A stretch of 64,000 bases of DNA, from assembly GCA_028693165.1 (NCBI GenBank), contig JAQUVX010000014.1, positions 34,420 through 98,419 on the forward strand. The letters run 5' to 3'. The position numbers and the translations under genes are program-made. Source of the stretch: Lachnospiraceae bacterium. Its GTDB lineage: Bacteria > Bacillota > Clostridia > Lachnospirales > Lachnospiraceae. A model generated the notes under the pieces. It was not told the DNA's origin and searched no databases. It saw only the letters and a list, made by a program, of their open reading frames with translations. Every line of letters starts with the position of its first letter. Within the stretch, counting starts at the first letter, position 1. Of the stretch, positions 1,146 to 18,438 are shown one piece after another.

Positions 1146-3107
1146 ATGAGTGAACAAAACCAATCGCCCGAACAGCTTCCGGCAGAACGCCTCATCACCG
1201 TGGCACTGGCCGGAAATCCAAATGTGGGAAAGAGCACCATTTTCAACGGATTGACGGGATTGAGACAGCATACCGGCAACTGGCCCGGAGTCACCGTTGC
1301 CTCGGCACGGGGGACCTTTTCGGTCGGCGGACAGGAATATCTGCTGATTGATTTACCCGGAACCTATTCCCTTGCGGCAAATTCTCAGGAAGAGATTATC
1401 GCCCGCGACTATATCTGTTCCGGTGAGGCGGATATGACGCTGATCATCTGTGACGGGACTTGTCTGGAACGCGGACTGCATCTGCTGAAGCAGATCGTGT
1501 CGCTGGATTATGTGAAGGATTCCAAAACACCGCTGATTCTCTGTGTGAATCTCTGCGATGAAGCAAAAAAGAAAGGAATCGAAATTGATTTTGAATTGCT
1601 GCGTGATGTTCTTCAGATTCCGGTCATCTGCTGCTGTGCGCGGGATGCTGCCTCACTTGAGCTCATCCGCCAGACCGTGCATGATACCGCAGGACAGCGT
1701 ATCTCCTATGATTGTCTGGACTTTTCGCCCAAGCAGCTTGCCGCAGAAATCGTCCGCTATACACGGCCGGATTACCGCAAGCGAGAAGAATTTATCGACC
1801 GCATCGTGACTGGCCCGATAACCGGCGGTCTGATCATGTTCCTGATGATTCTTGGTGTGTTCTGGCTCACGATGTCCGGTGCCAACATCCCTTCCTCTCT
1901 GCTCTGGAATGGCTTATTCTGGCTGGAAGGACAGCTCGCCGCATGGATGCTTTCTCTTGGTGCCCCAGGCTGGCTGATTCATATGCTGGTCTATGGCATC
2001 TATCGCGTCCTCGCCTGGGTCGTATCCGTGATGCTTCCGCCTATGGCGATCTTCTTCCCGCTCTTTACCCTGTTGGAAGATCTGGGCTATCTGCCGCGGG
2101 TTGCCTTCAATATGGACCGGTCTTTCCACCGCTGCAAGGCCTGTGGGAAACAATGTCTGACTACTGCCATGGGCTTTGGCTGCAATGCCGCCGGTGTCAT
2201 CGGCTGCCGCATCATCGATTCGCCCAGAGAGCGCCTCATTGCGATTCTGACCAATTCTCTGGTGCCCTGCAACGGCAGAATGCCGACTTTATTCCTGATG
2301 ATTACGCTGTTCTTTCTGGCACAAAACAGCTTTGGAAAGGGAACAGGACTGCTCTCGGCGCTGTTCATGACCAGCCTGATTCTGCTTGGCATCGCCGCCA
2401 CACTGGCGGCATCCTGGATTTTGTCTCACACGCTGCTGCGCGGAGTGCCGTCGGCTTTCACGCTGGAACTCCCGCCTTACCGCAGGCCGCAGATTCGAAA
2501 GGTCATTGTGCGTTCCGTCTTTGACCGGACACTGTTCGTACTTGGCCGTGCCGTCATGGTGGCGGCTCCCGCCGGACTCATCATCTGGCTGCTGGCAAAC
2601 ACCCTATACGTCGGCCCCACCCATGGCTGGTTCGCCTTCGCCCTGTCAGACACTGCCGTCTCCGCAACTGCTCCTACAACCGCCCTCGTGGCCCCCGCAA
2701 CCGCCCCCACCCTCCTCGCCTGCATCACTGGCTTTTTTGATCCGCTGGGCCGCCTGATCGGACTGGACGGCGTTATCCTGACTGCCTTTTTGCTTGGTTT
2801 TCCTGCCAACGAGATCGTGGTTCCGATCATCCTGATGACCTATTTGCAGTCCGGTATCCTGACCGAGATGAGCGACCCCTCTGCATTGTTCACGCTGCTG
2901 CAGGCACATGGCTGGACCACGACCACCCTGCTCTGCATGATGCTTTTCTGCCTGTTTCACTGGCCCTGTTCCACCACGGTTCTGACCATAAAAAAAGAGA
3001 CCGGGTCCCTCAAATGGACCGCAGTCTCTATCCTGCTCCCTACGCTGATCGGCATCGCGCTCTGCGCGGCCACCGCCGGTATCGGAAGACTGATCGCCTA
3101 TCTGTGA
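1146..3107 (+). CDS. feoB: Ferrous iron transport protein B (FeoB)
   Basis: 653 residues. The N-terminal G domain shows G1 GNPNVGKS (residues 23-30), the QHTGNWPGVTV switch I, G3 DLPGTYSL and G4 NLCD. The membrane part follows, with the conserved cysteine block CKACGKQ...GFGCNAAGVIGCRIIDSPRERLI and the gate motif LVPCNGRMPTLFL. It imports Fe(II) across the cytoplasmic membrane, driven or gated by GTP hydrolysis. No feoA or feoC is adjacent. An odd Ala/Thr/Pro-rich stretch of about 24 residues (499-522) sits between membrane segments where close relatives, as I recall them, have a short loop. ATG 1146 is 10-15 nt after GGGTGGAAG. Confidence 0.95.
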   Translation: MSEQNQSPEQLPAERLITVALAGNPNVGKSTIFNGLTGLRQHTGNWPGVTVASARGTFSVGGQEYLLIDLPGTYSLAANSQEEIIARDYICSGEADMTLIICDGTCLERGLHLLKQIVSLDYVKDSKTPLILCVNLCDEAKKKGIEIDFELLRDVLQIPVICCCARDAASLELIRQTVHDTAGQRISYDCLDFSPKQLAAEIVRYTRPDYRKREEFIDRIVTGPITGGLIMFLMILGVFWLTMSGANIPSSLLWNGLFWLEGQLAAWMLSLGAPGWLIHMLVYGIYRVLAWVVSVMLPPMAIFFPLFTLLEDLGYLPRVAFNMDRSFHRCKACGKQCLTTAMGFGCNAAGVIGCRIIDSPRERLIAILTNSLVPCNGRMPTLFLMITLFFLAQNSFGKGTGLLSALFMTSLILLGIAATLAASWILSHTLLRGVPSAFTLELPPYRRPQIRKVIVRSVFDRTLFVLGRAVMVAAPAGLIIWLLANTLYVGPTHGWFAFALSDTAVSATAPTTALVAPATAPTLLACITGFFDPLGRLIGLDGVILTAFLLGFPANEIVVPIILMTYLQSGILTEMSDPSALFTLLQAHGWTTTTLLCMMLFCLFHWPCSTTVLTIKKETGSLKWTAVSILLPTLIGIALCAATAGIGRLIAYL

Positions 3108-3846: not shown

Positions 3847-5499
3847 TTATTTCTCAATCGTCAGCGTCCCCGCGCTGATGCATTTACCGGACTTCCGGTC
3901 AAACAGCAGGATGTCGCTTCCCTGAATATCCATGCGGACTTTCTCGCTGATCTTGAACGTCACACCGCCGAAGATCACACCCGTCAGCAGGAAATCGCCC
4001 ACGCACAGCTTCACGGTCGATTCCATTCCGGTCGGCATCGCACCATAGACGGTCGCGTCAAGGCTTCCGTTCTCCAGAATCTTGATGCACTCCGGGCGAA
4101 TGCCCAGCACCAGATCCTCGTCGGTGATAACCGGCTCGTCCTCGATGCTGTAATCCTCTTCCTCCACCTTCTGCACATGATAGCGGAAGGTTTCATCCTT
4201 GTTGCTCTTTTCGACAAATTTCTTGTCCTTCATCTTCTCCTGGCGCACCGCATCGGCCTCCGCCTCCGCCTGATTGCGCGCATGGAACCACGCAGTCAGA
4301 TCCAGATCGGACTCCGGATGGAACACTGCCTTCACGCCGTCTAACACCGACAGCTTCACACTGCCGTCCGCCTCCTGCCTGCCCTTTCCCTCTACAAAAT
4401 TGATCGACGGGTTGCCGACAAAGTCCGCCACAAACAGATTGGACGGCCGGTTGTATACCTCAAGCGGCGCCTGATACTGCTGTAAGACTCCGTTGTTGAT
4501 CAGACAGATCTTGGTCGCCAGCGTCATGGCCTCCATCTGATCATGGGTTACATACACGAAGGTGCTTCCCGTCTCCACATGCAGACGCTGCAGCTCATAA
4601 CGCATCTCGAGACGAAGCTTCGCGTCCAGGTTGGACAGCGGTTCATCCATAAACAGCACATCCGGTTCCGGAGCCAGGGTACGGGCGATCGCAACTCGCT
4701 GCTGCTGACCACCGGACAGCTCGGCCGGATAGCGTTCCATAAACATCCCGATCTTTACGACGCGGGACACCCGGCGCACGGCCAGATCCACTTCCTCTTT
4801 CGTCAGCTTGCGGACCTCAGTCTGCACCTTGCCTCCGCTCACCACCGCAAACTCCGCATTCAGCTCCTGTCCATTATTCTTACAGGTCTCGCGGATCTCT
4901 GCCAGCTTCTTCTCCTGCTCTGCAGATTTCTCCCGCGCGGCAGCATCCGGATCCGATGCCTCCTGAATCTTCATGTCATACAGCGTTTTCGCCGTATACT
5001 GAGAAATCGTGAATGCGTCGATCATCTTTAAATAAACCTTATCGACATCCAGCTTGCCCTTCTTATCCCGGCAGTCCTCCACCAGCTCGGTGATCTTCCG
5101 CCCGCTTCTTAACGCGCGGATCAGATCGCTCGCCGTCTTTGCCTCAAAATTGATCTTCGGCAGCGATTCCCGGATGTTGCTCAAGCCAAAGGAAATGTTC
5201 TGATACACGGTCATATTCGGCCACAGCGCGTAGTTCTGGAATAAAAATCCCACTTTTCGCTTATTGGCCGGAATGTTGATCCCCTTCTCGCTGTCAAACA
5301 CCACCCGGTCGCCGATTCGGATCTGGCCGGTCGTCGGTGTCTCAAGCCCTGCAATCATGCGCAGGATCGTAGTCTTTCCACAGCCGGAAGGCCCCAGCAG
5401 TGTGATGAAGGAGTTGTCCGGAATATCCAGACTCAGATCATCCACTCCAAAGAATTTTCCCCATCGTTTTGTGATATGTGTTAATTTAATCTCAGGCAT
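3847..5499 (-). CDS. ABC importer ATPase, AfuC/FbpC-like, with a ~120-residue insertion
   Basis: 550 residues from ATG 5499 (GGAGG eight nucleotides upstream; the TTG extension to 5514 is rejected). Walker A GPSGCGKTT is at 36-44, the Q-loop LFQNYALWP near 87-95, signature LSGGQQQR at 261-268, Walker B VLFMDEP at 281-287 and the H-loop YVTHDQ near 316-321. A TOBE-like regulatory tail carries a second charged insert (QAEAEADAVRQEKMKDKK). Q-loop and signature are normally about 50 residues apart; here the distance is about 170, owing to a lysine/glutamate-rich helical insert (about 107-235). It energises the fused permease encoded 4 nt upstream. Confidence 0.9.
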   Translation of the reverse strand: MPEIKLTHITKRWGKFFGVDDLSLDIPDNSFITLLGPSGCGKTTILRMIAGLETPTTGQIRIGDRVVFDSEKGINIPANKRKVGFLFQNYALWPNMTVYQNISFGLSNIRESLPKINFEAKTASDLIRALRSGRKITELVEDCRDKKGKLDVDKVYLKMIDAFTISQYTAKTLYDMKIQEASDPDAAAREKSAEQEKKLAEIRETCKNNGQELNAEFAVVSGGKVQTEVRKLTKEEVDLAVRRVSRVVKIGMFMERYPAELSGGQQQRVAIARTLAPEPDVLFMDEPLSNLDAKLRLEMRYELQRLHVETGSTFVYVTHDQMEAMTLATKICLINNGVLQQYQAPLEVYNRPSNLFVADFVGNPSINFVEGKGRQEADGSVKLSVLDGVKAVFHPESDLDLTAWFHARNQAEAEADAVRQEKMKDKKFVEKSNKDETFRYHVQKVEEEDYSIEDEPVITDEDLVLGIRPECIKILENGSLDATVYGAMPTGMESTVKLCVGDFLLTGVIFGGVTFKISEKVRMDIQGSDILLFDRKSGKCISAGTLTIEK

Positions 5500-5503
5500 A
5501 TTG

Positions 5504-7333
5504 TCAACCTCCAATACCGTTATCCAGACTTGCTCCGGTTAATTTGTTTACCAATGTGTTGAATACCAGGATCGTGACGATCAGAATCAGGTTGATTGCA
5601 CTGGAAAATGCATACAAGCCCATCTCATCGAAATAATCCAGTGTCGTCGAGAGGATAAAGCCCTGTGTACAGAGCAGCAAAAACAGGGAAAGCTCCCGCA
5701 GACAGGTCATAAACGGAAGCATATATCCGCTGATGATCGCCGATTTTTGAATCGGAATAATGATATAAACCATCCGTTTCCACCAGGGCAGATCCTGGAT
5801 GATCGCAGCTTCCTCGATCTCGTTGCTGATCTGCAGCATGGAATTGAGTGCACTTCTGCTGGCAAAGGGGATGTACTTGATCGTGCCCGCGATGATCAGC
5901 AGTGTGTATGTATTGAACAGGTTGATCTTCTCATTGGAGAAGAGAATGAAGAATGCAGCTCCCACGGCGATGGACGGCATCAGGTATGGAAGGAACGCCA
6001 CGCCATTAACATAACTCGACCATCTGCTTCTCCGGTTCTTGGATACCGCATAGCCGATCAGGGTTCCGATGGTGCCTGCAATCAGTGCACAGCAGACCGA
6101 CACCAGAATCGTGCCGAGAAACGCGTGCCAGATCGTGGCATTATGCAGGATTCCCTGCTGGCCGTACATGCCGTTCTCCGTGATGTTTTCACTGGTAAGC
6201 CACCATTTCGTCGTCAGGTTGCTGAAATTTCTTGTATACAGGAAACTGTAATCACCCGGATTCGGCAGGAAGGTCTCCAGCGCGAAGGACAAAATCGGGA
6301 AAATGCTGGTGAAAAATGTCACGACCACGAGCACCAGACCAATGACATATTTTCCGATCTTACCCAGATTAATCTTGGAGAGCTGACCGGATTTTCCGGT
6401 GACCGTCGTATAATTTTTCCGGCTCTTTAAGCTCATCTGATTCATCGTCAGAATCGCCACACCAAATACCATCATGATGATCGCCAGGATGCTCGCCTCA
6501 CCCGTGTACTTGGAGTTCATGGAAATGTACTTGGTCGACAACGTCGTCAGCCCCAGATAATGCGGAACCGGATAGCTTCCCATCGAGCTTCCGAACACCA
6601 GCAGGATCGTGGAAAGGATCGCCGGTTTGACCATCGGAAGCGTGATCCGAAACATGGTTTTCCATTTCGGGGTATCCAGAATCGTCGCCGCTTCCTCCAG
6701 ATTTGCGTCCATGTTTCGGAAAATGCCTCCGATCAGGATATACGCAAACGCTGCGTAATGAAGCCCCAGCACAACCGAGCTTGGAAAAAGTCCCTGACAC
6801 CACCATTTTGGTGCCGTAATGCCGCACAGGGAAGTCAAAAGTCCATTGGAAGTTCCCACCACGGCGTTGCTGTCAAACACGTTCTGCCATACAACCGCCA
6901 GCGTCCACTGCGGCATGATGTATGGAAAAATAAAGATAGCGCTTAAATATTTTTTGAATTTTAAATTCGTTCTCGTAACCAGGAATGCGAACATTCCGCC
7001 ATACACAATCGCGATCAGGCAGGTAAACACGGCCAGAAGCACCGTATTCCAAAGCGGTTTCCACAGATTCGTCATCGCCAGGCGGCTGGTGAACAGGTCG
7101 ATATAGTTCACCGCCGTGTAGCCCACCGCCTTGCCGGTCAGATGTGCATCGATGGTGCCCGGATGAATCTGGAATGTATCTTTTACGATCGCCGCAATCG
7201 GTGCAACGGTCGAAAAGGTCAATGTGATTCCAAACAAGAGCAGGATGATATTCTGCGGTTTGGAACAAAAGGTTGTGATCTGATTGCGCAGGATGGCCTT
7301 CCGGTTGCTCCCTTTTGTGTTGATCTGCTCCAT
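5504..7333 (-). CDS. ABC importer permease, two permease domains fused (iron/phosphosugar type)
   Basis: 609 residues, about 12 membrane segments in two homologous halves. Each half has an EAA loop: EEAATILDTPKWKTMFRITL and EEAAIIQDLPWWKRMVYIII. Such fused permeases are typical of the FbpB/AfuB branch. ATG 7333 has GGAGG eight nucleotides upstream. It lies between the binding-protein gene, from which a terminator-like hairpin separates it, and the ATPase. The family is usually annotated as ferric iron transport, but AfuABC members carry hexose phosphates, and the neighbourhood here fits that better (inference). Confidence 0.9.
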   Translation of the reverse strand: MEQINTKGSNRKAILRNQITTFCSKPQNIILLLFGITLTFSTVAPIAAIVKDTFQIHPGTIDAHLTGKAVGYTAVNYIDLFTSRLAMTNLWKPLWNTVLLAVFTCLIAIVYGGMFAFLVTRTNLKFKKYLSAIFIFPYIMPQWTLAVVWQNVFDSNAVVGTSNGLLTSLCGITAPKWWCQGLFPSSVVLGLHYAAFAYILIGGIFRNMDANLEEAATILDTPKWKTMFRITLPMVKPAILSTILLVFGSSMGSYPVPHYLGLTTLSTKYISMNSKYTGEASILAIIMMVFGVAILTMNQMSLKSRKNYTTVTGKSGQLSKINLGKIGKYVIGLVLVVVTFFTSIFPILSFALETFLPNPGDYSFLYTRNFSNLTTKWWLTSENITENGMYGQQGILHNATIWHAFLGTILVSVCCALIAGTIGTLIGYAVSKNRRSRWSSYVNGVAFLPYLMPSIAVGAAFFILFSNEKINLFNTYTLLIIAGTIKYIPFASRSALNSMLQISNEIEEAAIIQDLPWWKRMVYIIIPIQKSAIISGYMLPFMTCLRELSLFLLLCTQGFILSTTLDYFDEMGLYAFSSAINLILIVTILVFNTLVNKLTGASLDNGIGG

Positions 7334-7374
7334 ATGAATGCCCTCCATTCAAATTCTGCCAATTTGAAACAAAA

Positions 7375-7419
7375 GGGTGCTGCAACACCGGTTTCTCGCC
7401 CCGGTCACTTGCAGCACCC
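7375..7419 (-). terminator. Partial terminator between binding-protein and permease genes
   Basis: GGGTGCTGCAA (7375-7385) pairs with TTGCAGCACCC (7409-7419), with an inner ACCGG/CCGGT stem. On the minus strand it is followed by TTTTGTTTC. Such attenuating hairpins commonly let the binding protein be made in excess over the membrane parts. Confidence 0.75.
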
Positions 7420-7434
7420 TGAAACTCACTGGTC

Positions 7435-8862
7435 TTACTGGGCTCCGCCCTCGCTGTATTTGGTCAGCAGTTCGATCCAGCTGCCAACGGTGAAGGATAC
7501 GGATGCGCAATATTCCGGATCTTCCAGAACCAGCTTGCCATCTGTGGTCCACCATTCATAACCGCGGTCATTCTTACAGTCAAATACATTTTCACCTGCT
7601 TCATTGTAGCCGCCCTTGCTGTGTACATAGGTCTCTTCCGTTGCCGCCAGAACTTCCGGATTGGAAGAATAGCCGCCCATATCTTTGCCCCATGCGCTGA
7701 ATCCGTCCTCGGTGCAGGTCATGTATGCGATAAATGCACATGCGGTCCACGGAAGTGGGCTGTTGTTGGTCAGGAACAGATAATGACAATATCCGAAGCC
7801 GCCGATACCCTGATAGCCGTCCTCGTAAGCTGCCACTTTAATATTGTTCAAAGAAACGCCGGAGGACTCTTCTACAGAACGCAGTTTGGAATATACCAGC
7901 AGTCCGCTCTGATCGGTTGCGGAATCGGTAACCAGCGTATTGCAGATCGGGCCGTCATCGGTCTGTGCATTGTAGCTCTCCACCCACAATTTGATCCATG
8001 CAAGAGCATACGCGCCGTCTGCGCCAAGTCCCAGATCTGCTGCATCAACCTCCATCTGCTCGATGACCGGTTTGAAATAAGCCTGCTTATCTGCGCTCAG
8101 TGCTTCAAAGGATTCTTTCATCCATGCTGCATACTTATCTTCGGTCAGCATGTACAGGAAGTTCTTTCCGACGATCTCAGAATCGATGTCCATGTACAGC
8201 GGATGAGAACCTTCTGCTACGAAATCCCAGCAGTTATTGTAAACTGCACTGCCGGTGGAATTGTACATAAATACTTTATTCAATGTCTGCAGCGGCAGGA
8301 AGCCTTCATAAGCATCTGCGGTAGTTCCATTGGCCTCTGCCCACTCCTTCGGAACGTAGGTTTTTAAGATGCCCGGCTGAACCATCTTGGACTCGATCTG
8401 GTTGCCGTCCTGAATCAGTGTCATTGCAAAGGTTCCGCTGGCTTTCAGGGAATCTGCCGACAACTGCTCGAAAATCTTGTTGTTCTTCGGCTGCTGCCAC
8501 TCGTATTCCATCTTGTAGGACGGATCCATGCTCTGGAGATACTCGATGAACAGCGGAAGTGCCGTCTTTCCTCGGCTGGAGTTGCCCACGCCGTAAAATG
8601 TCTTTCCGTTGGACTCCTCGATCGCCTTCTTGCCCAGCTCCTCCAGGCTCATGCCCTCTGCTTCCTTGATGATCTTCTCGATCTCAGAAAGATTTGCGGT
8701 GTCCTCGGCCTTGGTCTCTGCCGGTGCTGCTGCCGCCTGCGTCTCCGCCGGTGCTGCTCCTGCCGGTGCTGCCGTCTCTGCCGGTTTTGATCCTCCGCAG
8801 CCAGCCAGTGACATGGTCACCATCGCCCCTGCCAGTACCAGTGATAAAAATCGTTTCTTCAT
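7435..8862 (-). CDS. Extracellular solute-binding lipoprotein of the ABC importer
   Basis: 475 residues. The signal peptide MKKRFLSLVLAGAMVTMSLAG is followed by lipobox Cys22, then an Ala/Pro/Thr-rich linker and a periplasmic-binding fold with many aromatic residues. It has the features of the large binding proteins of iron/phosphosugar-type importers (family 1/6 group). ATG 8862 is chosen over an in-frame start at 8886 because the lipoprotein signal begins there. First gene of the importer operon; its promoter carries a box shared with pgmB. Ligand not determinable; a phosphorylated sugar is the best guess from context. Confidence 0.85.
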   Translation of the reverse strand: MKKRFLSLVLAGAMVTMSLAGCGGSKPAETAAPAGAAPAETQAAAAPAETKAEDTANLSEIEKIIKEAEGMSLEELGKKAIEESNGKTFYGVGNSSRGKTALPLFIEYLQSMDPSYKMEYEWQQPKNNKIFEQLSADSLKASGTFAMTLIQDGNQIESKMVQPGILKTYVPKEWAEANGTTADAYEGFLPLQTLNKVFMYNSTGSAVYNNCWDFVAEGSHPLYMDIDSEIVGKNFLYMLTEDKYAAWMKESFEALSADKQAYFKPVIEQMEVDAADLGLGADGAYALAWIKLWVESYNAQTDDGPICNTLVTDSATDQSGLLVYSKLRSVEESSGVSLNNIKVAAYEDGYQGIGGFGYCHYLFLTNNSPLPWTACAFIAYMTCTEDGFSAWGKDMGGYSSNPEVLAATEETYVHSKGGYNEAGENVFDCKNDRGYEWWTTDGKLVLEDPEYCASVSFTVGSWIELLTKYSEGGAQ

Positions 8863-8936
8863 GTTTCTTCCTCCCTTTCCAAACATTGTGATTGTTACGT
8901 TTCACGTTCGATGTCACGCTGACATCTGATAGCTCT

Positions 8937-8997
8937 ATTATAGGAAAAAGAAGCAGAAAAAGACACTGGACAAAGCTGTGATTCTTTTAGTTTTTCC
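8937..8997 (-). promoter_or_regulatory. Promoter of the ABC importer with activator box
   Basis: On the minus strand a perfect TATAAT (8937-8942) has no good -35 hexamer. Starting exactly 21 nt upstream is a box (8964-8988) that matches the pgmB promoter box at 22 of 25 positions. Its core on the + strand is GGACAAAGCTGTGATTC. A weak -35 with a proximal activator site is the classic layout of an activated promoter; the likely activator is the AraC-type response regulator at 9786-10541 (inference). Confidence 0.7.
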
Positions 8998-9033
8998 AAC
9001 ACGTTGCATATAAAATTCGATATTTTCCGCAGT

Positions 9034-9675
9034 TTATAGTGTATTTTGCACATTCAAAAGCGCTCTGAGCGTCGTAATTCGGATATCCGTCCGCTCATAT
9101 CGTGCCGCATCTCCGATTCCCACCGCCGTCATCCCGGCCGCCTTCGCCGCGTCGATTCCCGCCTCGGCATCCTCGACCACGATACAGTTGGCCGGCTGCT
9201 CGCCCAGATATTGGGCCGCTTTCAAAAAGACCTCCGGGTGCGGCTTGGAGTGCGTGATGTTCGTCCCGTCCGAGATGGCATCGAACTGCTGCGTCAAATC
9301 CGTCTGCTTTAAGATGTATTTTGTATTCCGACTGGAAGATCCCACCGCCAGTTTATGTCCCTGCCTGCGCAGCTCCTGCAGCGTCTCCCGCACCGACGCG
9401 TCCACAGAGTCCGGCGTCATCTCCGCCAGATAGCCCCGGTAAATTTCATTTTTCTCCTCCATCAGCGCCTGCTTTTCCGCCTCCGAGAGCGGCGCTCCGT
9501 GATACCCTTCCAAAATAATCTCAAGGCTGTCCGCCCGGCTCACCCCGCGCAGGCGGTTGTTGATCTGCTCATCAAACGCGATTCCGAGCCTGTCCGCAAT
9601 CTGCTTCCACGCCTGATAATGAAACTGATCCGTAAACACCAGTACCCCATCCAAATCAAAAATAAATGCTTTCAT
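9034..9675 (-). CDS. pgmB: Beta-phosphoglucomutase-like HAD phosphatase
   Basis: 213 residues from ATG 9675 with AGAAGG five nucleotides upstream. Catalytic HAD motif FDLDGV puts Asp7 and Asp9 as nucleophile and acid/base. The cap signature RLRGVSRADSLEIIL is characteristic of beta-phosphoglucomutase. Motif II is VGSSSRN and motif III/IV VVEDAEAGIDAAKAAGM. It interconverts beta-glucose-1-phosphate and glucose-6-phosphate in the cytosol. It has its own promoter sharing a box with the ABC importer, which points to phosphosugar use by this locus. No maltose or trehalose phosphorylase is present in the window. Confidence 0.88.
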   Translation of the reverse strand: MKAFIFDLDGVLVFTDQFHYQAWKQIADRLGIAFDEQINNRLRGVSRADSLEIILEGYHGAPLSEAEKQALMEEKNEIYRGYLAEMTPDSVDASVRETLQELRRQGHKLAVGSSSRNTKYILKQTDLTQQFDAISDGTNITHSKPHPEVFLKAAQYLGEQPANCIVVEDAEAGIDAAKAAGMTAVGIGDAARYERTDIRITTLRALLNVQNTL

Positions 9676-9711
9676 ATGTGCCTTCTCCCACCGTCCTGAA
9701 TTATTTCTTTC

Positions 9712-9772
9712 ATTATAAAAAATCCGGTGTCTTTTAAACACCGGACAAAACTGTGATTCCTTTCAGTTTTCA
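9712..9772 (-). promoter_or_regulatory. pgmB promoter with shared activator box
   Basis: TATAAT on the minus strand (9712-9717), then 21 nt, then the box 9739-9763 with core GGACAAAACTGTGATTC on the + strand. Spacing to the -10 is identical to that at the importer promoter (8937-8988). Similarity continues past the core with one gap (CTTTCAGTTTT versus TTTTAGTTTT). Confidence 0.7.
9718..9745 (-). terminator. Terminator of the sensor operon, overlapping the pgmB promoter
   Basis: TCCGGTGT (9723-9730) pairs with ACACCGGA (9738-9745) around a 7-nt loop. On the minus strand it is followed by TTTTTTATAATG, so the U-run also supplies the pgmB -10. Its 5' arm overlaps the activator box, so regulator binding and termination share sequence. 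Confidence 0.75.
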
Positions 9773-9785
9773 GCTAAATGATTCC

Positions 9786-10541
9786 TTACCGACACTGATA
9801 TTCCGACGGACTCACGCCCACGATCTTTTTAAATGTGCTGGAAAAATACGTGATATCCTTATATCCGACCATCTCCGCCACCTCATACACCTTATAGCGG
9901 CAGTTTTCCAGCAGCTTGATCGCCGCCCGCATACGATACCGGGTAATATACGACATCACGGTATAATCCGTCTCCTTCTTAAACAGGTGGCTCAAATGCC
10001 CCTCACTCAGTCCCAGCGATTCCGCAATCACGCCCACGCTCATATGAGAATCGCCATAATGCTCCGCAATGTAGGCGAGTGCCTCCTGAATATAGCCGCT
10101 CTTTGACGATTTGTCGGCGGAAATCTGAGGAAGAATCTGGTCTGCCGGGTCCGATGTGCCATTCTTTGACTCAATGCGCTTCTTGACCTTCAGCACCGCT
10201 TCTTCTAATTCCCCGTCCTCGAACGGTTTCAGCAGATAATCAAACGCCAGCAGCTTCAGTGCCTCCCGCGCATACGAAAATTCACTGTAAGCGGTCAGAA
10301 AGATCACCTCCACCGCGCTGCCCTCCTCCCGCAGTTGGTGCAGCATCGCGATTCCATCCATCTTGGGCATACGGATATCGCTGATGATCAGCTCCGGCAT
10401 ATATTTGTGCACCGCCTCAATTCCCTCCTGGCCGTTGGAAGCCTCGGCGACCACCACACACCCCAGCGCGTCCCAGTCCGTCTCCATCACAATTCCTTTT
10501 CGGACAAACATTTCATCGTCAATTACTAATACCTTGATCAT
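9786..10541 (-). CDS. AraC-type response regulator (YesN/HptR-like)
   Basis: 251 residues. A CheY-like receiver (1-120) has acidic pocket DD at 8-9, phosphoacceptor Asp55 in LIISDIRMPKMDG and Lys in LLKPF. A linker leads to two AraC helix-turn-helix motifs (about 150-250; SVGVIAESLGLSEGHLSHLFK and VYEVAEMVGYKDITYFSSTFK). It overlaps the kinase gene by 4 nt. The best functional match is HptR, which activates hexose-phosphate uptake in Staphylococcus aureus. Probable targets are the two box-bearing promoters at 8937-8988 and 9712-9763. Confidence 0.92.
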   Translation of the reverse strand: MIKVLVIDDEMFVRKGIVMETDWDALGCVVVAEASNGQEGIEAVHKYMPELIISDIRMPKMDGIAMLHQLREEGSAVEVIFLTAYSEFSYAREALKLLAFDYLLKPFEDGELEEAVLKVKKRIESKNGTSDPADQILPQISADKSSKSGYIQEALAYIAEHYGDSHMSVGVIAESLGLSEGHLSHLFKKETDYTVMSYITRYRMRAAIKLLENCRYKVYEVAEMVGYKDITYFSSTFKKIVGVSPSEYQCR

Positions 10542-12253
10542 ACTCTTTCTGACACTTCCTTTCCTGCCGGCAGTTCAATCACAACCCGGGTTCCGCCCTC
10601 CGCCGGCTGTTCCACACGGATTCCATAATCCTCCCCGTAATGCAGCCGTATGATCGTGTCCACATTATACATTCCAATATGTCCGCTGATCTTGTCCCAT
10701 TCGCGCCGGTTCAAAAGCTCCATGCGCTCCGGATCGATCCCGCAGCCATTGTCCTGCACCTCGATGCGCAGCCGCGCGCCATCCCCGGACACACGCACGC
10801 AAATGATCCCTTCCTCACATTCCGCCAGACCGTGAATCACTGCATTTTCCACAACCGGCTGCACGATGAGCTTCGGCACCATGCAGGCCGCATACTGCTG
10901 CGGCAGATCGTAAGAGAAGGTGAACCGGCCATTGAAGCGGATTCTCTGAATCTCCGTATAAGATTCCACCAGCTCCATTTCATCGCTCAGTGGAATAAAC
11001 GCCGCCTTGGAAATGCTGGTGCGCAGGATCTTTGCCAGCTTCGCCGCCAGTGTGGCCAGCTCCGAAATATGGTTCGCCTTGGCAATCCACTTGATCGTAT
11101 CCAATGTATTGTACAGGAAATGTGGATTCAACTGCGCCTGCATCATGGCAATCTGGACGTCGTTCAGCTTCTTCTGCTGGCTGACCTGCTGCTCCATATA
11201 CCCTTTTAGTTCCTGCGCCATCGTATTGAAATTGTCCGACAGTTGTCCGAATTCATCCGTGCGCTGAAACGTGAGGCGTGTATCCAGCTCCCCCTGCTGG
11301 AGCCGGTGCATCGCCAGATTCAGCCTGCGGATCGGCCAGGACAAATGATTGCTCATCCGTTCCGACACCGCGATGCACAACAGCAGACTCGCACCCGCCA
11401 TTACCAGCAAAACGCTGTACATGGAACGGATCGTGTCTGCGGTAAATAACTCCGGCCGCAGCAGCACGCTGACCAGCCCGGTTTCGCCAAGCCTGCTGAT
11501 GTAGACCCGGTTGCCCTGATAAGAGCCATCCAGCCTTTCTCCCGCCAGCAGACGCCCGCGCAGAACCGTACCGATATCCTCCCGTCCTGCCGCTCCCGCC
11601 GCGTAAACCGTCTCGAAAAAGTTGTTCAGAATGCAGACTCCGTCCTGTGTCCCATAGTCCCCTCTTAAGATCTCTTCAAAATTCTTTGCCGTCATGCTGA
11701 TGACCACAAAGCCAATCGGATTATCCGCCTCGTCCCAAATGGCGCGCGACGCCCGCAAAAGGACATCGGCCTCTCCCGTATATTTCTGCTCCCGCCGGAT
11801 AATCAGCTCGTCCGGATGTGCCGCGGAAACCTTCAAAATCCCCCAATAGGGCAGCAGCCTCGTATGAAACAGCTCCGTCCCGGTCGAATATTGACAGATA
11901 CCGTCCGGCGTGTAAAGCTCCACCTCGGCGCGTTCCCGAAGTCCCACCGTCTCCTGATACAGGCGGGCATAGACCTCACTGCGCGGCGCTCCGCCCTTCC
12001 CGGCGAGCGTCGTCCGAATCTGCTCATCCGCCGCCAGCTTCTCCGTAACGCTGCGAAAATTCTCAAACAATGTGGTGAGCTTCTCATCGATCTGCTGCAC
12101 CTGCGCCATATCCTGTTTCTGGTAATCCCGGTCCAGTTTCATTTTAAACATCTGAATCAGAAACAGGCTGCTGATGATAAGCGGCAGCAGTGCAACTCCC
12201 AGAAAGCTGACCAAAAGCTCACGCTTGAATGATTTTGTGATAAATTCCTTCAT
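10538..12253 (-). CDS. YesM/HptS-like sensor histidine kinase
   Basis: 571 residues: transmembrane helix near 14-34, a large extracytoplasmic sensor (about 40-280), a second helix near 285-305, HAMP, then the His_kinase domain with phospho-acceptor His in LNPHFLYNTLDTIKWIA and the ATPase N box VVENAVIHG and G box DNGCGID. This is the LytS/YesM class that pairs with AraC-type regulators. It sits between the binding-lipoprotein gene (12 nt upstream) and the response-regulator gene (4-nt overlap), consistent with sensing through the ligand-loaded lipoprotein. Confidence 0.92.
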   Translation of the reverse strand: MKEFITKSFKRELLVSFLGVALLPLIISSLFLIQMFKMKLDRDYQKQDMAQVQQIDEKLTTLFENFRSVTEKLAADEQIRTTLAGKGGAPRSEVYARLYQETVGLRERAEVELYTPDGICQYSTGTELFHTRLLPYWGILKVSAAHPDELIIRREQKYTGEADVLLRASRAIWDEADNPIGFVVISMTAKNFEEILRGDYGTQDGVCILNNFFETVYAAGAAGREDIGTVLRGRLLAGERLDGSYQGNRVYISRLGETGLVSVLLRPELFTADTIRSMYSVLLVMAGASLLLCIAVSERMSNHLSWPIRRLNLAMHRLQQGELDTRLTFQRTDEFGQLSDNFNTMAQELKGYMEQQVSQQKKLNDVQIAMMQAQLNPHFLYNTLDTIKWIAKANHISELATLAAKLAKILRTSISKAAFIPLSDEMELVESYTEIQRIRFNGRFTFSYDLPQQYAACMVPKLIVQPVVENAVIHGLAECEEGIICVRVSGDGARLRIEVQDNGCGIDPERMELLNRREWDKISGHIGMYNVDTIIRLHYGEDYGIRVEQPAEGGTRVVIELPAGKEVSERV

Positions 12254-12265
12254 GCCTTTTCCCCT

Positions 12266-13315
12266 TTAGTCAATCCGTTTCGTCCACTGTTCCAGAAGCT
12301 CTGTCTGATGCCTGCCCGCCCATTCCAGGTCAAAGGGAATAATCTCCAGCATCCCCAGCGCGTGAACATTCTCCGTGTCCCGCTGCAAATCGGTGCGGGC
12401 GGTTCTGCGGCAAAACTGATCCATTGCCAGATTCTGCACGTCATTGCTGACCGTAAAATCGATGAACAGCTTCGCATTGTCCGGATGCGGTGCCCCCTTT
12501 ACCAAAGCACACCCATCCGGCACAGCACTGGTTCCCTCCAGAGGATATACCATGCCGATGTCCAGTCCCGCCGCAATTTCCTTCCTGGCTGCTTCCTCCA
12601 GCGTAATGCCGACCAGCCGGAATCCATCGCCGATCTCCTTGATCAGTTCCCCGGAACCGGCAGAAATATTGCCGTCCAGAGCCTCCGTAAACTGATTTAA
12701 GGTGTCTTCGATGTCCATACTGCCCTCCCGGCCCGTGATCTGAATCATCGTCGAGAGCGCCGTATAGCTGGTCCCCGATTTGCGCGGATCGGCAAACGCG
12801 ATCTGCCCCTTCCATTTATCTCCCAGAAATTCTTCCCAGCTTCGCGGCGCATCCTCCTCGCTGACCAGCTTATTATTATAAATAAACACGATCGGCAGCT
12901 CCGTGAAGATCGTCCAGGTATGTTCCGGCGAAGCATACTGGGGGTCCAGCAAATCACTCTGACTACAGGCATAGGGTTCCAGATAATCCCTGTACGCCTC
13001 ATAGCTCTCCACGCCGCCGCCAAACATCACATCGCAGGCCTGCTTTCCCGACGATGCCTTCACCGCCTCCAGCATCTCCGTGGTTCCGCCCGCGTGCACG
13101 TCAACCCAGATCCCGGTACGCTCCTCAAACTCCTTCACGATCGGACCATACACCTCCGCTTTGTGTGATGTATATAAAATCAGTTTTTTATCTTCGCCAA
13201 TTTCCGGCGGCAAATCCGCCTGTCCCGTCATTTGACCGCAGCCTGACAGCAGCATCGATATCCCCACGATGCCAGCCAGCAATCCCGCAAGTCCAGATCC
13301 CATCTTTCGCCTCAT
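12266..13315 (-). CDS. Binding lipoprotein of the sensor operon (HptA/AfuA-like)
   Basis: 349 residues from ATG 13315, preceded by AGGAGGAGAAGG. Signal peptide with lipobox LSGC (Cys26), then an iron-type family 1 binding fold (KKLILYTSHKAEVYGPIVKEF...VHAGGTTEMLEAV...FADPRKSGTSYTAL). It is smaller than the transport binding protein at 7435-8862. It heads an operon with a kinase and a regulator, not a permease. S. aureus HptA, annotated the same way, senses glucose-6-phosphate, so I call this a sensory binding protein (inference). Confidence 0.88.
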   Translation of the reverse strand: MRRKMGSGLAGLLAGIVGISMLLSGCGQMTGQADLPPEIGEDKKLILYTSHKAEVYGPIVKEFEERTGIWVDVHAGGTTEMLEAVKASSGKQACDVMFGGGVESYEAYRDYLEPYACSQSDLLDPQYASPEHTWTIFTELPIVFIYNNKLVSEEDAPRSWEEFLGDKWKGQIAFADPRKSGTSYTALSTMIQITGREGSMDIEDTLNQFTEALDGNISAGSGELIKEIGDGFRLVGITLEEAARKEIAAGLDIGMVYPLEGTSAVPDGCALVKGAPHPDNAKLFIDFTVSNDVQNLAMDQFCRRTARTDLQRDTENVHALGMLEIIPFDLEWAGRHQTELLEQWTKRID

Positions 13316-13410: not shown

Positions 13411-13487
13411 GAGCGTTAGTAAGTCATGATCGCGGCTGTGCCCAGATGCGCGGTTTCGATCACAACATATACAAGGAGCAAACAATT

Positions 13488-14216
13488 ATGCAATTACTCA
13501 TCGTCCGGCACGCAGATCCGGATTATTCCATTGATTCCCTGACCCCAACCGGCTGGGAGGAAGCAGAGCTTTTATCCGGGTGGCTGGCAAAGCTCCCGAT
13601 CGATGCCTTTTACGTGTCCCCGCTGGGCCGCGCGAAAGACACCGCCTCCCTCACCCTGAAAAAATTTGGAAAAGAAGCCACCGTATGCGACTGGCTGCAG
13701 GAGTTTCCGCCCAAGATCATGCGTCCGGATGCCGGGCGGCTTATCATTCCCTGGGACTGGCTTCCCGCCGAGTGGACGAAAGAAGAACGCTATTTTGATC
13801 ATCAGAACTGGTATGATACCGAGATTATGAACGACGGTCATGTGGGAGATGCCTATCGCAAGGTCGTCAAGGGCCTGGATCAGCTTCTGGCCCATCATGG
13901 CTACCGCCGCAAAGACCTGTACTATCAGGCCGAACAGCCAAACCGTGACACGATCGTACTGTTCTGTCACTTCGGCGTGGAATGCGTGCTGCTCAGCCAT
14001 CTTTTGAACATTTCCCCCATGGCACTGTGGCACGGCTTCTGCGCCGCACCGTCCTCCGTCACCACGCTGGTTACCGAGGAACGCCGCGAAGGTGCCGCAT
14101 ACTTCCGCATGAACTGCTTCGGAAGCACCGCCCATCTGGATGCTACCGGACGAGAGCCCTCCGTCGCGGCTCGCTTCTGTGAAACCTTTACATGCAAAGA
14201 GGAACGCCACGACTGA
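13488..14216 (+). CDS. Histidine phosphatase family protein
   Basis: 242 residues from ATG 13488 (AAGGAG nine nucleotides upstream; the longer frame from 13446 is rejected). N-terminal IVRHADP carries phospho-acceptor His8 of the RH(G/A) motif. YVSPLGRAKDTA is the second arginine region, and FCHFGVECVLLSHLL supplies the C-terminal His. The family includes cofactor-dependent phosphoglycerate mutases and many phosphatases; substrate is not predictable. Stand-alone gene, transcribed away from the sensor operon and ending in a strong terminator. Confidence 0.85.
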   Translation: MQLLIVRHADPDYSIDSLTPTGWEEAELLSGWLAKLPIDAFYVSPLGRAKDTASLTLKKFGKEATVCDWLQEFPPKIMRPDAGRLIIPWDWLPAEWTKEERYFDHQNWYDTEIMNDGHVGDAYRKVVKGLDQLLAHHGYRRKDLYYQAEQPNRDTIVLFCHFGVECVLLSHLLNISPMALWHGFCAAPSSVTTLVTEERREGAAYFRMNCFGSTAHLDATGREPSVAARFCETFTCKEERHD

Positions 14217-14248: not shown

Positions 14249-15748
14249 CTACGCCGCTTCCACCTTCTTGCCGTCATCCGGCTTTTCCGTTTCCACTTTC
14301 TCCTTTACAGGGCGCTTCCACGCATGCATTGCAAGTGCCATGGCGATAACGCCGTAGGACACGAACACACGGAAATACTCACCGATGACCGGATCGCCAA
14401 ACAGCTCTTTACCAGCCAGCGGAGATACGATGAACAGGGTGTGGAACAGCACGATACCAAGCAGGGCCTGCTTGTTGGTCGCCTTCTGTACCGAAGCGCC
14501 GCCGACTAACAGTGCCGCGATCGCGAACTGGCCGACCTGGGTATGCGCGCCGTAGGTAGAAAGCGTTCCCACGTTCTGCAGGAAGATCAGCTGTCCCCAG
14601 CTTGCCAGTACCGTGGAGAAAATCATCGCGATGATACGGGTTTTGTCTACGTTGATACCGGCTGCATTTGCCACGGTTCTGCTCTGTCCAACGGTTCTCA
14701 TGTTCTGGCCCAGACGGGTTTTCATCAGAATGTTGTTGAAGCAGCAGAGTGCTCCGATGCAGAGGTACGTCATAACCGGAAGCTGTACCACGATCAGTAC
14801 CTTGTAAAGCGCCGGAACATAGGTCAGGCCATAGATCACTGCCGCCAGCCCAAGATTGACCAGCGCACGCTTACCGTTAAACGGCTTTCTGACCGCGCCA
14901 ACAGCCGCATCCAAAGCACCCGCATTTCCTGCACTCAGCTTTGATCTCACAAACTTCAGAGCCTGCCAGATCACTGTCGCCAGACAGCCCAGCTCGATCG
15001 CGGAAAGCAGCATCAGCCGGTCTTTCGCCAGGAACTGCTCCACCGGTCCGATGTAGGTCAGGCCGTATACTACCAGTGCTGCAGCGGCGCTGAGGATCGT
15101 CTTTTTCCAGTCTACCGTCTGCTTTTTCGCAAGCTTAAAGATCGTGGAGCAGACCAGTCCGATCAGTACCAGATAGAATCCAATTTCGATGATAGTCAGC
15201 ATCGGCACCGTGTCCAGTGCGTACTTGACCGTGTCTTTTAAGTCAATGGTGTTTTTAACGCCGACACCGGTTGCAATCATCAGAGTCGGATTGTTCAGTG
15301 CAATCACACCGCCGAAGATGAACAGGAAGATCAGCTGGTAAATACCTTCTGCAAAATATCCCAGAACCAGACCGCCGATCATCTCATTGCCCTTCATCTG
15401 GTTGAACAATTTACCAACCAGGAAGCCAAAGAAGATGGAGATCGGAGTTGCCAGCGCTACCGTTGCCATAAAGCCGCCGATTCCGGTGAAGCCCCAGTAG
15501 GTCGTCAAAAAGATCGCGATCTGTGCGGCCATGGCACCGATGACAATACCAAAGTTCAGACCCATACCGGCGATAACCGGAATGATCAGGGCCAGCACGA
15601 TGAAGGAGTTTCTTGCAATACGTGTGAACAGCTCCGGAATGACGAAGGTCAGCGGCTGCTTTGATGCGATAGTCGCACCCACACACAGGAAAATGAACAG
15701 GATTACAACCTTGTTCTGGAATAATACGTCTCTTAGCTTCTTATTCAC
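14249..15748 (-). CDS. ABC permease 2 of the DUF3798-associated importer (BPD_transp_2 family)
   Basis: 499 residues with about 10-12 membrane segments. It belongs to the simple sugar/nucleoside branch (YufQ/RbsC-like), shown by GMGLNFGIVIGAMAAQIA, KGNEMIGGLVLGYF and NMRTVGQSRTVANAAGINVDKTR. The start is GTG 15748 with GGAGGTGA upstream; the extension to 15781 is less likely. The start overlaps the end of permease 1 by 8 nt. A long middle segment between membrane blocks makes it larger than permease 1. Last gene of the operon. Confidence 0.87.
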   Translation of the reverse strand: MNKKLRDVLFQNKVVILFIFLCVGATIASKQPLTFVIPELFTRIARNSFIVLALIIPVIAGMGLNFGIVIGAMAAQIAIFLTTYWGFTGIGGFMATVALATPISIFFGFLVGKLFNQMKGNEMIGGLVLGYFAEGIYQLIFLFIFGGVIALNNPTLMIATGVGVKNTIDLKDTVKYALDTVPMLTIIEIGFYLVLIGLVCSTIFKLAKKQTVDWKKTILSAAAALVVYGLTYIGPVEQFLAKDRLMLLSAIELGCLATVIWQALKFVRSKLSAGNAGALDAAVGAVRKPFNGKRALVNLGLAAVIYGLTYVPALYKVLIVVQLPVMTYLCIGALCCFNNILMKTRLGQNMRTVGQSRTVANAAGINVDKTRIIAMIFSTVLASWGQLIFLQNVGTLSTYGAHTQVGQFAIAALLVGGASVQKATNKQALLGIVLFHTLFIVSPLAGKELFGDPVIGEYFRVFVSYGVIAMALAMHAWKRPVKEKVETEKPDDGKKVEAA

Positions 15749-16832
15749 GGCTGTCACCTCCTTTTGCCTGCGTAAGTGCATAGATAATGATACCGTTGGA
15801 GATGATCAGTCGCATAACCTCGGATAAGTTGCTCTCCGGGATGAACTGATTTGCCACCGGAAGTCCCAGCGCCAGGATACCCTGGAACAGGAACGTACCA
15901 ATCAATACATGGGTAATGCTCGCGCGCTTCGGGCTTGCACCGCCGATCAGCACCGCTGCAACCGAAGTAAAGCCCATCATCATCGGTCCGTTGTAAAGCT
16001 GCATGAAACCGAAGCCCTGTGCATAGACCAGAATACCAACTGCTGCCAGCACGGTCGACAAGGTTGTGCCGATCAGGCGCATCTTGTTGACGTTGATTCC
16101 CGCCGCTTTCGCGAACATCGGGTTCGCACCGGCTGCGCTCATCGCGATACCGGTCTTGGACCGCATGAACAGCCAGATCAGGAAACAGATCAGGAAGAAG
16201 AACAGCAAAAGTCCCGTCGGAACCGTCAGTGCGCCGATCTTAAATGCCAGTGTGTTGTTCATGACACCGCTGAAGGAAGCCGCCAGGGAGATGGTATTAC
16301 GAAGACCTTTTCCCGCATTCGGCCAGATCAGCTCACCGTTGCTGAACGGAAGCAGCATCCACAGAATATTCATGAATGCGATGATCGAGAAGCCGACATA
16401 GGTCGTAACGGTCATCTCAGAACCTTTTACCCGGTTTAAGAGCTGTCCGTACAGATAGCCGATTCCAATCGCCAGCACCACACCGATCAGGATAGCCAGA
16501 AGCACTGCCACCCAAGCTGCAAGCAGCGGACTGATTGCCACCAGAGACGGATTCTGTGCAACATTTAACTGGATCACGATCAGGCCGCCCAGAAGACCGC
16601 CCACGATTCCCATGGAAATACCAAAGTTCAAACCAATACCGCACTGGACTGCCGGGACCATCGCCAGCGCCAGGATACCGAACATGCCCCAGCGGCGGAC
16701 ACAGTCACTTAAGAGCTGCATCAGATTCATCTGGAAGCCGCCTGCCGCGACCACCAGAAGCAGGAAGAAGGAAACAATGATCACGCGCGGCAGACCGAAT
16801 TTGTCTACCAGCGGTTTTAATGGATTACGCAT
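15741..16832 (-). CDS. ABC permease 1 of the DUF3798-associated importer (BPD_transp_2 family)
   Basis: 363 residues, about nine membrane segments. Family hallmarks are GIGLNFGISMGIVGGLLGGL, KGSEMTVTTYVGFS and the cytoplasmic loop AAGANPMFAKAAGINVNKMR. ATG 16832 has GGAGG eight nucleotides upstream. It overlaps the ATPase gene by 8 nt and is translationally coupled with both neighbours. It pairs with permease 2 to form the heterodimeric channel. Confidence 0.88.
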   Translation of the reverse strand: MRNPLKPLVDKFGLPRVIIVSFFLLLVVAAGGFQMNLMQLLSDCVRRWGMFGILALAMVPAVQCGIGLNFGISMGIVGGLLGGLIVIQLNVAQNPSLVAISPLLAAWVAVLLAILIGVVLAIGIGYLYGQLLNRVKGSEMTVTTYVGFSIIAFMNILWMLLPFSNGELIWPNAGKGLRNTISLAASFSGVMNNTLAFKIGALTVPTGLLLFFFLICFLIWLFMRSKTGIAMSAAGANPMFAKAAGINVNKMRLIGTTLSTVLAAVGILVYAQGFGFMQLYNGPMMMGFTSVAAVLIGGASPKRASITHVLIGTFLFQGILALGLPVANQFIPESNLSEVMRLIISNGIIIYALTQAKGGDSRE

Positions 16833-18438
16833 TGGCTTCTCCTCCCTTCCATGCGCCGGACATCGCCAGACCGAAGTTGGCATCGGAATCATCCGGTTTC
16901 AGAATGCATGCTAATTTGCCGTCCGATACGATCGCGATCCGGTCAGAGATCGAACGCAGTTCCACCAGCTCGGAGGATACGATAATGACGGTCATACCGG
17001 TCTCCCGGTTCAGCTTTGCAAGATACTCCAGAACCAGCTTCTTGGCACCGATGTCGATACCACGGGTCGGCTCGGAGACGAACAGCACTTCCGGCTCCAG
17101 TGTCAAAGCACGCGCCAGACAGACCTTCTGCTGGTTACCGCCGGAGAGACGTCCCGCCGCCTGCCGGATACCGGTACAGCGGATATCCAGGGTCTTGACC
17201 ATCTGCTCTGCGTGAACCTTCGCCGCTGCCGCATCGTACAGCTTCATCCAGGCAATTTTCTTTAAAAATTTATCGTTGGTCTGCATCGCGGAGAATACGA
17301 TATTCTGCTCAATGCTCTCATCCAGCAGAAGACCTACGCCACGACGGTCCTCCGACACAAATGCCACCTTGTGGTTCAGGGCATCACCCAGTTTGTCCAG
17401 GTTCAGCTCCTGCCCGTTGATCTTTACATGGCCGGTCGCCTTGTAAAGACCCATGATGCCGTTTGGAATACCCAGTTTTCCCTGACCTGCAAGTCCTCCG
17501 ATTCCGAAGATCTCGCCTCTGCGGATGTCCAGATCCACTCCCTTTACCCGCTCGCCAGGCATCTCTACTCTATAATCTCTTAAGCTTACGGCGATCTCAT
17601 CCTCGCTGATCACGCGGTTGTCCGGAAGGTCATCGTCAAGAAGCTTCTCGACCTTACGTCCGATCATAAGCTCTGCAATCTCTACCACATTTGTATCTTT
17701 GATTTCTTTTCGCGCGACAAACTCACCATCTCGCAGGATCGTCATGCCATCTGCAACAGCCATGACCTCATCCAGACGATGGGTGATAAAAATAATTGCG
17801 ATCCCGTGGGAAGAAATGACACGCATAGCTTCCAGCAGGCGATCCGCCTCCGATTCCGTCAAAACGGCAGTCGGCTCATCAAATACCAGAATCTTAATGC
17901 CGGTCTTGTCAAGCTCACGTGCAATCTCGATAAACTGCATGTAGCCTACCGGAAGTCCGGCTACTTTTACATACTCTTCAATCTGAAGACCAATGGTCTT
18001 CAGCGCTTTTTTCGCATCCTTTGCCATCTGCTCGAAGTCAAGAGACTCCATAGAACGGCCAAATATACGGCTTACCAGGTTCGGTGTACTGATCTCACGG
18101 CCTACTTTAATATTCTCTGTGACAGAGAATCCCGGAATCAGCATGAACTCCTGATGTACCATACCAATACCCAGCTCCATCGCCTTAAGCGGTGTATCAA
18201 TAACAACATCCTGACCATCTACCTGGATGGTTCCTTCGTAGCCACCGGTGCTGTGGATAACCGGCATACCAAATAAAATATTCATCAAGGTCGATTTTCC
18301 TGCACCGTTTTCCCCCATCAGCGCATGAATCTCACCTGGACGGATATGGAGATTAACTCCCTTTAAAACCCGGTTGCCGGAATATTCCTTGGCTATGTTG
18401 TCCATTTTCAGGACATAGGTTTCGTTCGTGTTTTCCAA
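16825..18438 (-). CDS. ABC ATPase with two nucleotide-binding domains (sugar/nucleoside type)
   Basis: 537 residues. The first domain has Walker A GENGAGKST and Walker B LVFDEPTAVLT. The second has a divergent Walker A (GIGGLAGQGKLGI), signature LSGGNQQKVCLARAL and LFVSEPTRGID. Tandem-domain ATPases of this kind serve RbsA/YufO-type importers. Translation starts at TTG 18438, eight nucleotides after AGAGG; the next Met (MDNIAKEY) would cut the first strand. A terminator-like hairpin lies between this gene and the binding-protein gene. Confidence 0.9.
   Translation of the reverse strand: MENTNETYVLKMDNIAKEYSGNRVLKGVNLHIRPGEIHALMGENGAGKSTLMNILFGMPVIHSTGGYEGTIQVDGQDVVIDTPLKAMELGIGMVHQEFMLIPGFSVTENIKVGREISTPNLVSRIFGRSMESLDFEQMAKDAKKALKTIGLQIEEYVKVAGLPVGYMQFIEIARELDKTGIKILVFDEPTAVLTESEADRLLEAMRVISSHGIAIIFITHRLDEVMAVADGMTILRDGEFVARKEIKDTNVVEIAELMIGRKVEKLLDDDLPDNRVISEDEIAVSLRDYRVEMPGERVKGVDLDIRRGEIFGIGGLAGQGKLGIPNGIMGLYKATGHVKINGQELNLDKLGDALNHKVAFVSEDRRGVGLLLDESIEQNIVFSAMQTNDKFLKKIAWMKLYDAAAAKVHAEQMVKTLDIRCTGIRQAAGRLSGGNQQKVCLARALTLEPEVLFVSEPTRGIDIGAKKLVLEYLAKLNRETGMTVIIVSSELVELRSISDRIAIVSDGKLACILKPDDSDANFGLAMSGAWKGGEANA

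Follow-up and report, generated by a model that had tools for sequence, protein, structure and literature searches.

A conserved HptASR-type sensory system and an ABC importer, probably for phosphorylated sugars, in Lachnospiraceae

The window analyzed here is a 64,000-nucleotide stretch of DNA from a Lachnospiraceae bacterium (assembly GCA_028693165.1, contig JAQUVX010000014.1, positions 34,420–98,419 of the forward strand), and belongs to a genome of 3.6 Mb assembled in 42 contigs. Seven genes at 3847–13315, all on the minus strand in the list of open reading frames (ORFs), encode two binding proteins (SBP1 and SBP2), a histidine kinase, a response regulator, a beta-phosphoglucomutase (beta-PGM), a permease and an ATPase. 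The best explanation, with a probability of roughly 0.6, is that SBP1, the kinase and the regulator form a three-component sensory system controlling a dedicated ATP-binding cassette (ABC) importer for a phosphorylated sugar. The gene starts were picked from conserved residues and ribosome-binding sites.

12266–13315, minus strand: SBP1, HptA-like sensor lipoprotein of the SBP_bac_6 family (PF13343)
10538–12253, minus strand: YesM-type sensor histidine kinase (PF06580, HAMP, HATPase)
9786–10541, minus strand: AraC-type response regulator (PF00072, Response_reg, and PF12833, HTH_18)
9034–9675, minus strand: pgmB, beta-PGM (TIGR01990)
7435–8862, minus strand: SBP2, importer binding lipoprotein of 475 aa, orphan sequence family
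5504–7348 (start uncertain), minus strand: fused permease with two BPD_transp_1 halves (Pfam)
3847–5499, minus strand: ABC ATPase (ABC_tran) with two family-specific inserts

The original prediction was built on these genes, and the ORF list and the Pfam and NCBIfam families confirm all of them in place. SBP2 relatives are encoded in 464 of 506 candidate stretches of genome_contigs, and the best 80 were kept for locus comparison. The permease is a neighbor in 77 of them, the ATPase in 70, SBP1 in 61, and the kinase and the regulator in 60 each; several stretches end at contig ends, which affects these counts. Because the permease, the ATPase and SBP1 recur so often, the gene set is not due to chance. 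SBP1 is placed upstream of SBP2 in 43 loci (the window included), divergently in 14 and downstream in 5. The linkage between SBP1 and the importer thus survives rearrangement, which argues for one common function. A strong SBP2 relative is seen in 13 of 200 genomes of the family, the window's own genome not counted, and in the class sample relatives at E 1e-30 occur in 13 of 391 genomes, a count that contains the own genome and one remote case. A scan of viral_contigs with SBP2 found no relative.

The connection between the sensor and the importer is based on a conserved 32-base element upstream of SBP2. Among 61 rows with the kinase or regulator gene nearby (60 loci and the window), 59 exceed 13.3 bits, the level below which 99% of random stretches fall; such stretches may themselves contain true sites (top score 39.8). 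The two rows below this level are L107 and L117. A -10-like box starts 21 bases after the element in 55 of 65 rows and 20 bases after it in two, and a second CAG is found 20 bases upstream in 49 of 65 rows, in direct-repeat fashion. The position weight matrix (PWM) was trained on the sites that it scores, except in the orientation split. Here, the matrix trained on the 43 upstream-type rows recovers all 19 divergent or downstream loci above 99% of shuffles, and the reverse split, trained on the 14 divergent loci, recovers 29 of the 43 rows. The sites in the window are as follows.

8964–8995, minus strand: operator before SBP2-permease-ATPase, PWM 33.0 bits, conserved in relatives
8937–8942, minus strand: -10 box TATAAT of the SBP2 promoter
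9739–9770, minus strand: operator before pgmB, PWM 29.9 bits
9711–9716, minus strand: -10 box TATAAT of the pgmB promoter

The presence of the operator follows the presence of SBP1. For 16 loci that have no SBP1 nearby, the check was extended to the whole genome. Six of these genomes encode a close SBP1 elsewhere (409–480 bits), and five of the six loci contain the operator, with a weak site below the level in L104. It is seen in none of the 10 loci whose genome encodes no SBP1 or only a distant one (276 bits or less; Fisher p = 0.0014, kinship not corrected for). G088, G109 and G010 were also included in the genome-wide check and left out of the operator table, and L127 was dropped from the table for its too short upstream stretch. 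L082 and L115, both near a contig end and outside the genome-wide check, do not contain the operator.

A pattern search of the window's 3.6 Mb genome finds two sites with at most one mismatch, one before SBP2 and the other before pgmB. Four further matches carry three mismatches, and the reversed control pattern gives three matches. Since the operator is conserved and these two genomic sites precede SBP2 and pgmB, control of the importer and, in the window, of pgmB by the regulator from two promoters is very probable. The original prediction, which wired the sensor to an ABC importer in place of UhpT and put pgmB in the same regulon, therefore appears right in its wiring, judged from sequence, and an operator can now be added to it. 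No match to TIGR00881, a family which presumably includes UhpT, is above the cut-off in any of 16 genomes. Across 25 genome handles (two of which, G149 and G597, are apparently the same genome), the pattern gives 26 matches in 21 handles versus 5 for the reversed control. Eighteen matches precede SBP2 and one precedes pgmB; the remaining seven, whose surroundings were read by eye only, have no sugar-phosphate or transport gene behind them. Only one other site above 17 bits is seen in the 80 loci, at 9074 (+) of L070 (23.3 bits), and it is located between the regulator and SBP2, ahead of a stretch of unassigned identity. In the window, a hairpin (CCGGTGT...ACACCGG) with a T-run is located at 9724–9744 within the spacer of the pgmB promoter, and is probably the terminator of the sensor operon.

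SBP1 indicates the class of the ligand. With a profile of 40 SBP1 sequences, the best chain in PDB is HptA (177.7 bits, E 2.6e-51), followed by P5PA (134.6 bits), AfuA (133.1 bits) and the glucose 6-phosphate (G6P) binder VcA0625 (129.5 bits). All four bind phosphorylated ligands and rank ahead of the iron binders, which score at most 100.5 bits. The phosphate contacts of AfuA and P5PA are described in the available part of PMC8427247. At the equivalent positions, read by eye off printed profile alignments, SBP1 proteins contain T or S86 (40/40), S188 (40/40), G189 (39/40), S or T190 (40/40) and S229 (40/40), and SBP1 of the window contains T86, S188, G189, T190 and S229. Because these main contacts are kept, the ligand of SBP1 is likely phosphorylated. 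The extracellular part of the kinase shows a dCache hint below the cut-off and no other match. Among the best 60 of 64 matches of the kinase profile, none is named HptS, and the best aligned stretches correspond to the membrane-proximal, HAMP or catalytic part.

The other clue is pgmB. It scores 235.5 bits against TIGR01990 (curated cut-off 189.4), 17 of its 18 PDB matches are named beta-phosphoglucomutase, and it is the only above-cut-off beta-PGM of its genome. HAD-family genes are found in or beside 20 of the 80 clusters (beta-PGM in 7, Cof-type in 13 and HAD-IA in 10, the last always positioned after SBP2). Among the three types, beta-PGM alone has a substrate defined by its family. The usual bacterial source of beta-glucose 1-phosphate is a GH65 phosphorylase. 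None of the eight genomes with pgmB in the cluster encodes GH65, and this pgmB is their sole beta-PGM above the cut-off; GH65 is seen in 7 of 12 other importer-bearing genomes examined. In a comparison sample of 120 family genomes, 19 contain an above-cut-off beta-PGM, 17 of them without pgmB in the cluster. GH65 is present in 13 of these 17 versus 0 of the 8 (Fisher p = 0.0005); several of the eight are related and not independent, and completeness is given for two. The lack of GH65 in all eight genomes suggests that import supplies their beta-PGM. The ligand that best fits these eight genomes is a beta-hexose 1-phosphate, for example beta-glucose 1-phosphate.

The system might work as follows. 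SBP1 would bind the extracellular ligand through the conserved phosphate subsite, and the ligand-bound SBP1 would activate the YesM-type kinase, by analogy with HptASR. The AraC-type regulator would bind the direct-repeat operator that immediately precedes the -10 region; the operator is defined by conservation and its binding is presumed. The targets would be the importer operon and, in the window, pgmB. SBP2, together with the fused permease and the ATPase that bears the inserts, could then import the compound with its phosphate kept on, and its conversion in the cell would fall to pgmB here and, in some relatives, to other enzymes of the HAD type. The ligand class that fits best is sugar phosphate, and hexose 1-phosphate is the most interesting candidate within it. 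SBP1 possibly senses an extracellular sugar phosphate of this kind. It can be speculated, tentatively, that the importer carries hexose 1-phosphate (beta-glucose 1-phosphate in the pgmB-bearing genomes), and that beta-PGM is thus fed from outside the cell and not by a phosphorylase.

Several observations weigh against this explanation. As a single sequence, SBP1 of the window scores slightly higher with AfuA (88.4 bits) than with HptA (83.0 bits). The AfuA phosphate contacts G38 and T60 are unmatched in SBP1. The sugar triad H205/D206/E229, among the AfuA residues described as essential for sugar in the available part of PMC4546632, is not kept: SBP1 proteins show E in 35 of 40 at the first position, T in 26 and A in 6 at the second, and V in 32 at the third. 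In 60 of the 80 loci, some of which reach contig ends, no beta-PGM, Cof-type or HAD-IA gene is found. The Cof-type and HAD-IA proteins are phosphatase-like, with general PDB matches and unassigned substrates. Beta-PGM without GH65 is also seen in 4 of the 17 family genomes outside the cluster. Five genomes (G128, which is only 69% complete, G166, G153, G109 and G010) contain the importer and neither GH65 nor an above-cut-off beta-PGM, and beta-glucose 1-phosphate is therefore not the sole substrate family-wide. Three of the 80 loci contain GH31 upstream of SBP1, one contains a weaker GH31 following the ATPase and one contains GH13, and GH31 also occurs in L047. An operator above 17 bits for pgmB itself is seen in the window and in none of the seven relatives with pgmB, where the gene lies after the ATPase, between the ATPase and SBP1, or after the regulator. 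No operator above 17 bits precedes SBP1 in the 80 loci, and autoregulation of SBP1 is thus unsupported.

The nearest alternative is an importer of hexose 6-phosphate, G6P, in the strict AfuABC sense, with pgmB being incidental. It agrees with the closeness of the SBP1 family to HptA, which senses G6P according to the available parts of PMC8774646 and PMC13419708, and with the closeness of the single window sequence to AfuA. It is doubtful, as the AfuA triad is not kept in SBP1. Besides, G6P needs no beta-PGM, yet pgmB of the window has its own operator copy, and pgmB is found in the clusters of seven of the 80 relatives. Another phosphorylated or phosphonate compound, such as aminoethylphosphonate, phosphoglycerate or pyridoxal phosphate, might be imported instead, because P5PA scores like AfuA against the SBP1 profile and the best NCBIfam matches are phosphonate families, phnS2 for SBP1 and PhnU2 for the permease. 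These matches are far below the curated cut-offs (102 of 393 bits for PhnS2 and 107 of 593 for PhnU2; PhnT2, at 282 of 458, is also below its cut-off), on which ground phosphonate import is rejected. With a beta-PGM in the regulon, a hexose phosphate is indicated instead, which makes this whole group of substrates improbable.

It is quite improbable that unphosphorylated alpha-glucosides are imported and beta-PGM handles an intracellular phosphorylase product. The GH31 and GH13 genes mentioned above would fit such a system, and CuaDSR-CuaABC is a known sensor-importer pair for cellobiose in the available part of PMC10384115. On the other side, the eight genomes with pgmB in the cluster contain no GH65, the main phosphate contacts are kept in SBP1, and two of the three loci with GH31 upstream of SBP1 come from sister Hungatella species. 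Iron is unlikely as the substrate, and a ferric-iron importer, as automatic annotation would have it, is hardly credible. An FbpA-type pair of adjacent tyrosines (YY), regarded in the original prediction as a mark of iron binding, was looked for and is seen in neither SBP1 nor SBP2 of the window. As the SBP1 family is also nearer to HptA than to any iron binder, iron import is rejected as the principal explanation; the fold search alone is indecisive. A FeoB-like gene (named by eye) at 1146–3107 adjoins the cluster. It lies on the other strand with no operator above 17 bits near it, and matches to it are seen in four of the 80 stretches (L065, L066, L071 and L103).

Preference for a phosphorylated sugar over iron, as in the original prediction, thus stands in outline, while neither G6P nor an importer of the strict AfuABC kind is supported by the residues that can be tested. 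Taken as a whole, that interpretation is partly supported.

Two proteins of the importer are unusual. SBP2 has one Pfam match far below the cut-off and no NCBIfam match, and neither its sequence nor its profile gives a credible PDB relative. Its AlphaFold model (pLDDT 86.6) shows a type II binding-protein fold. In the fold search, HitA and MctA score 22.6 and AfuA 21.4, a shared fold that does not discriminate iron from sugar phosphate. SBP2 matches the SBP1 profile with 90.7% probability over 169 columns, too loosely for placing residues, those of the AfuA sugar triad included, in so remote a sequence. Four cysteines in the mature exported part (C219, C315, C383 and C460) are conserved in 36–38 of 40 rows. 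L052 and L146 encode an SBP2-related family of about 400 aa, and in L052 this protein is accompanied by an insert-free ATPase near PTS- and aldolase-like genes (judged by eye). In L110, two SBP2 copies flank a HAD-IA gene and the operator is present; SBP1 is not in that stretch and is encoded elsewhere in the genome. The inserts of the ATPase, defined by alignment with 64 of 70 relatives (selected by length) and the insert-free paralogue of L052, are as follows.

4801–5163, minus strand: insert 1, 121 residues (112–232, from the Pro after Met), between the Q-loop and LSGGQ
4126–4293, minus strand: insert 2, 56 residues (402–457), in the C-terminal domain

Insert 1 is well predicted within a model of modest pTM (0.61). 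No Pfam family is above the cut-off for either insert; insert 1 has a GatB_Yqey match below the cut-off, and no credible PDB relative.

Outside the seven genes, a histidine-phosphatase gene (PF00300) at 13446–14216 is divergent from SBP1, with relatives in three of the 80 stretches (L054, L092 and L109). On the same strand, 14249–18438 contains two permease genes and an ATPase gene resembling a BMP-type nucleoside ABC importer, according to the ORF list only.

Among known systems, one of the closest is HptASR (HptRSA) of Staphylococcus aureus. As far as the available part of PMC8774646 describes it, its genes for a lipoprotein sensor, a kinase and a regulator follow the same order as here. The domains of an HptASR-type set, expected in the original prediction, are present, and HptA is the best match of the SBP1 profile. 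The difference is that HptASR targets UhpT, whereas the system here is predicted to target an ABC importer and pgmB. AfuABC of Actinobacillus and enterobacteria differs in its binding protein, as SBP2 belongs to an orphan family and is about half as long again, in the lack of the two ATPase inserts, and in the sugar triad absent from SBP1; the importer here is also regulated, in all probability, through a three-component sensor of its own. CuaDSR-CuaABC of Ruminiclostridium cellulolyticum likewise has separate binding proteins for sensing and transport, a two-component system and an ABC importer in the available part of PMC10384115. Its ligand is cellobiose, which is then processed by a phosphorylase, whereas the phosphate contacts and beta-PGM here point to sugar phosphates. 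The pair of GH65 phosphorylase and beta-PGM contains the same beta-phosphoglucomutase family, which is here paired with an importer while GH65 is absent. In the parts of the literature available to the search, no paper was recognized as describing this pairing of sensor and importer.

In many gut bacteria, a surface sensor of this kind probably detects an extracellular phosphorylated sugar and turns on a single dedicated importer, together with, in the window, an enzyme whose known substrate is glucose 1-phosphate. Such a mode of feeding on already phosphorylated sugars seems to be undescribed. Given the operator and the lack of GH65, the question of the substrate can be tested directly. SBP2, a putative transporter binding protein, is outside every curated family searched here; SBP1, SBP2 and the ATPase with its inserts offer new material for characterization. 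Were hexose 1-phosphate indeed the imported compound, as speculated above, the importers would form an ABC family dedicated to glycosyl phosphates, with an HptA-like sensor protein of its own. If the broader explanation is true, many Lachnospiraceae and Oscillospiraceae would live on sugars that arrive phosphorylated.
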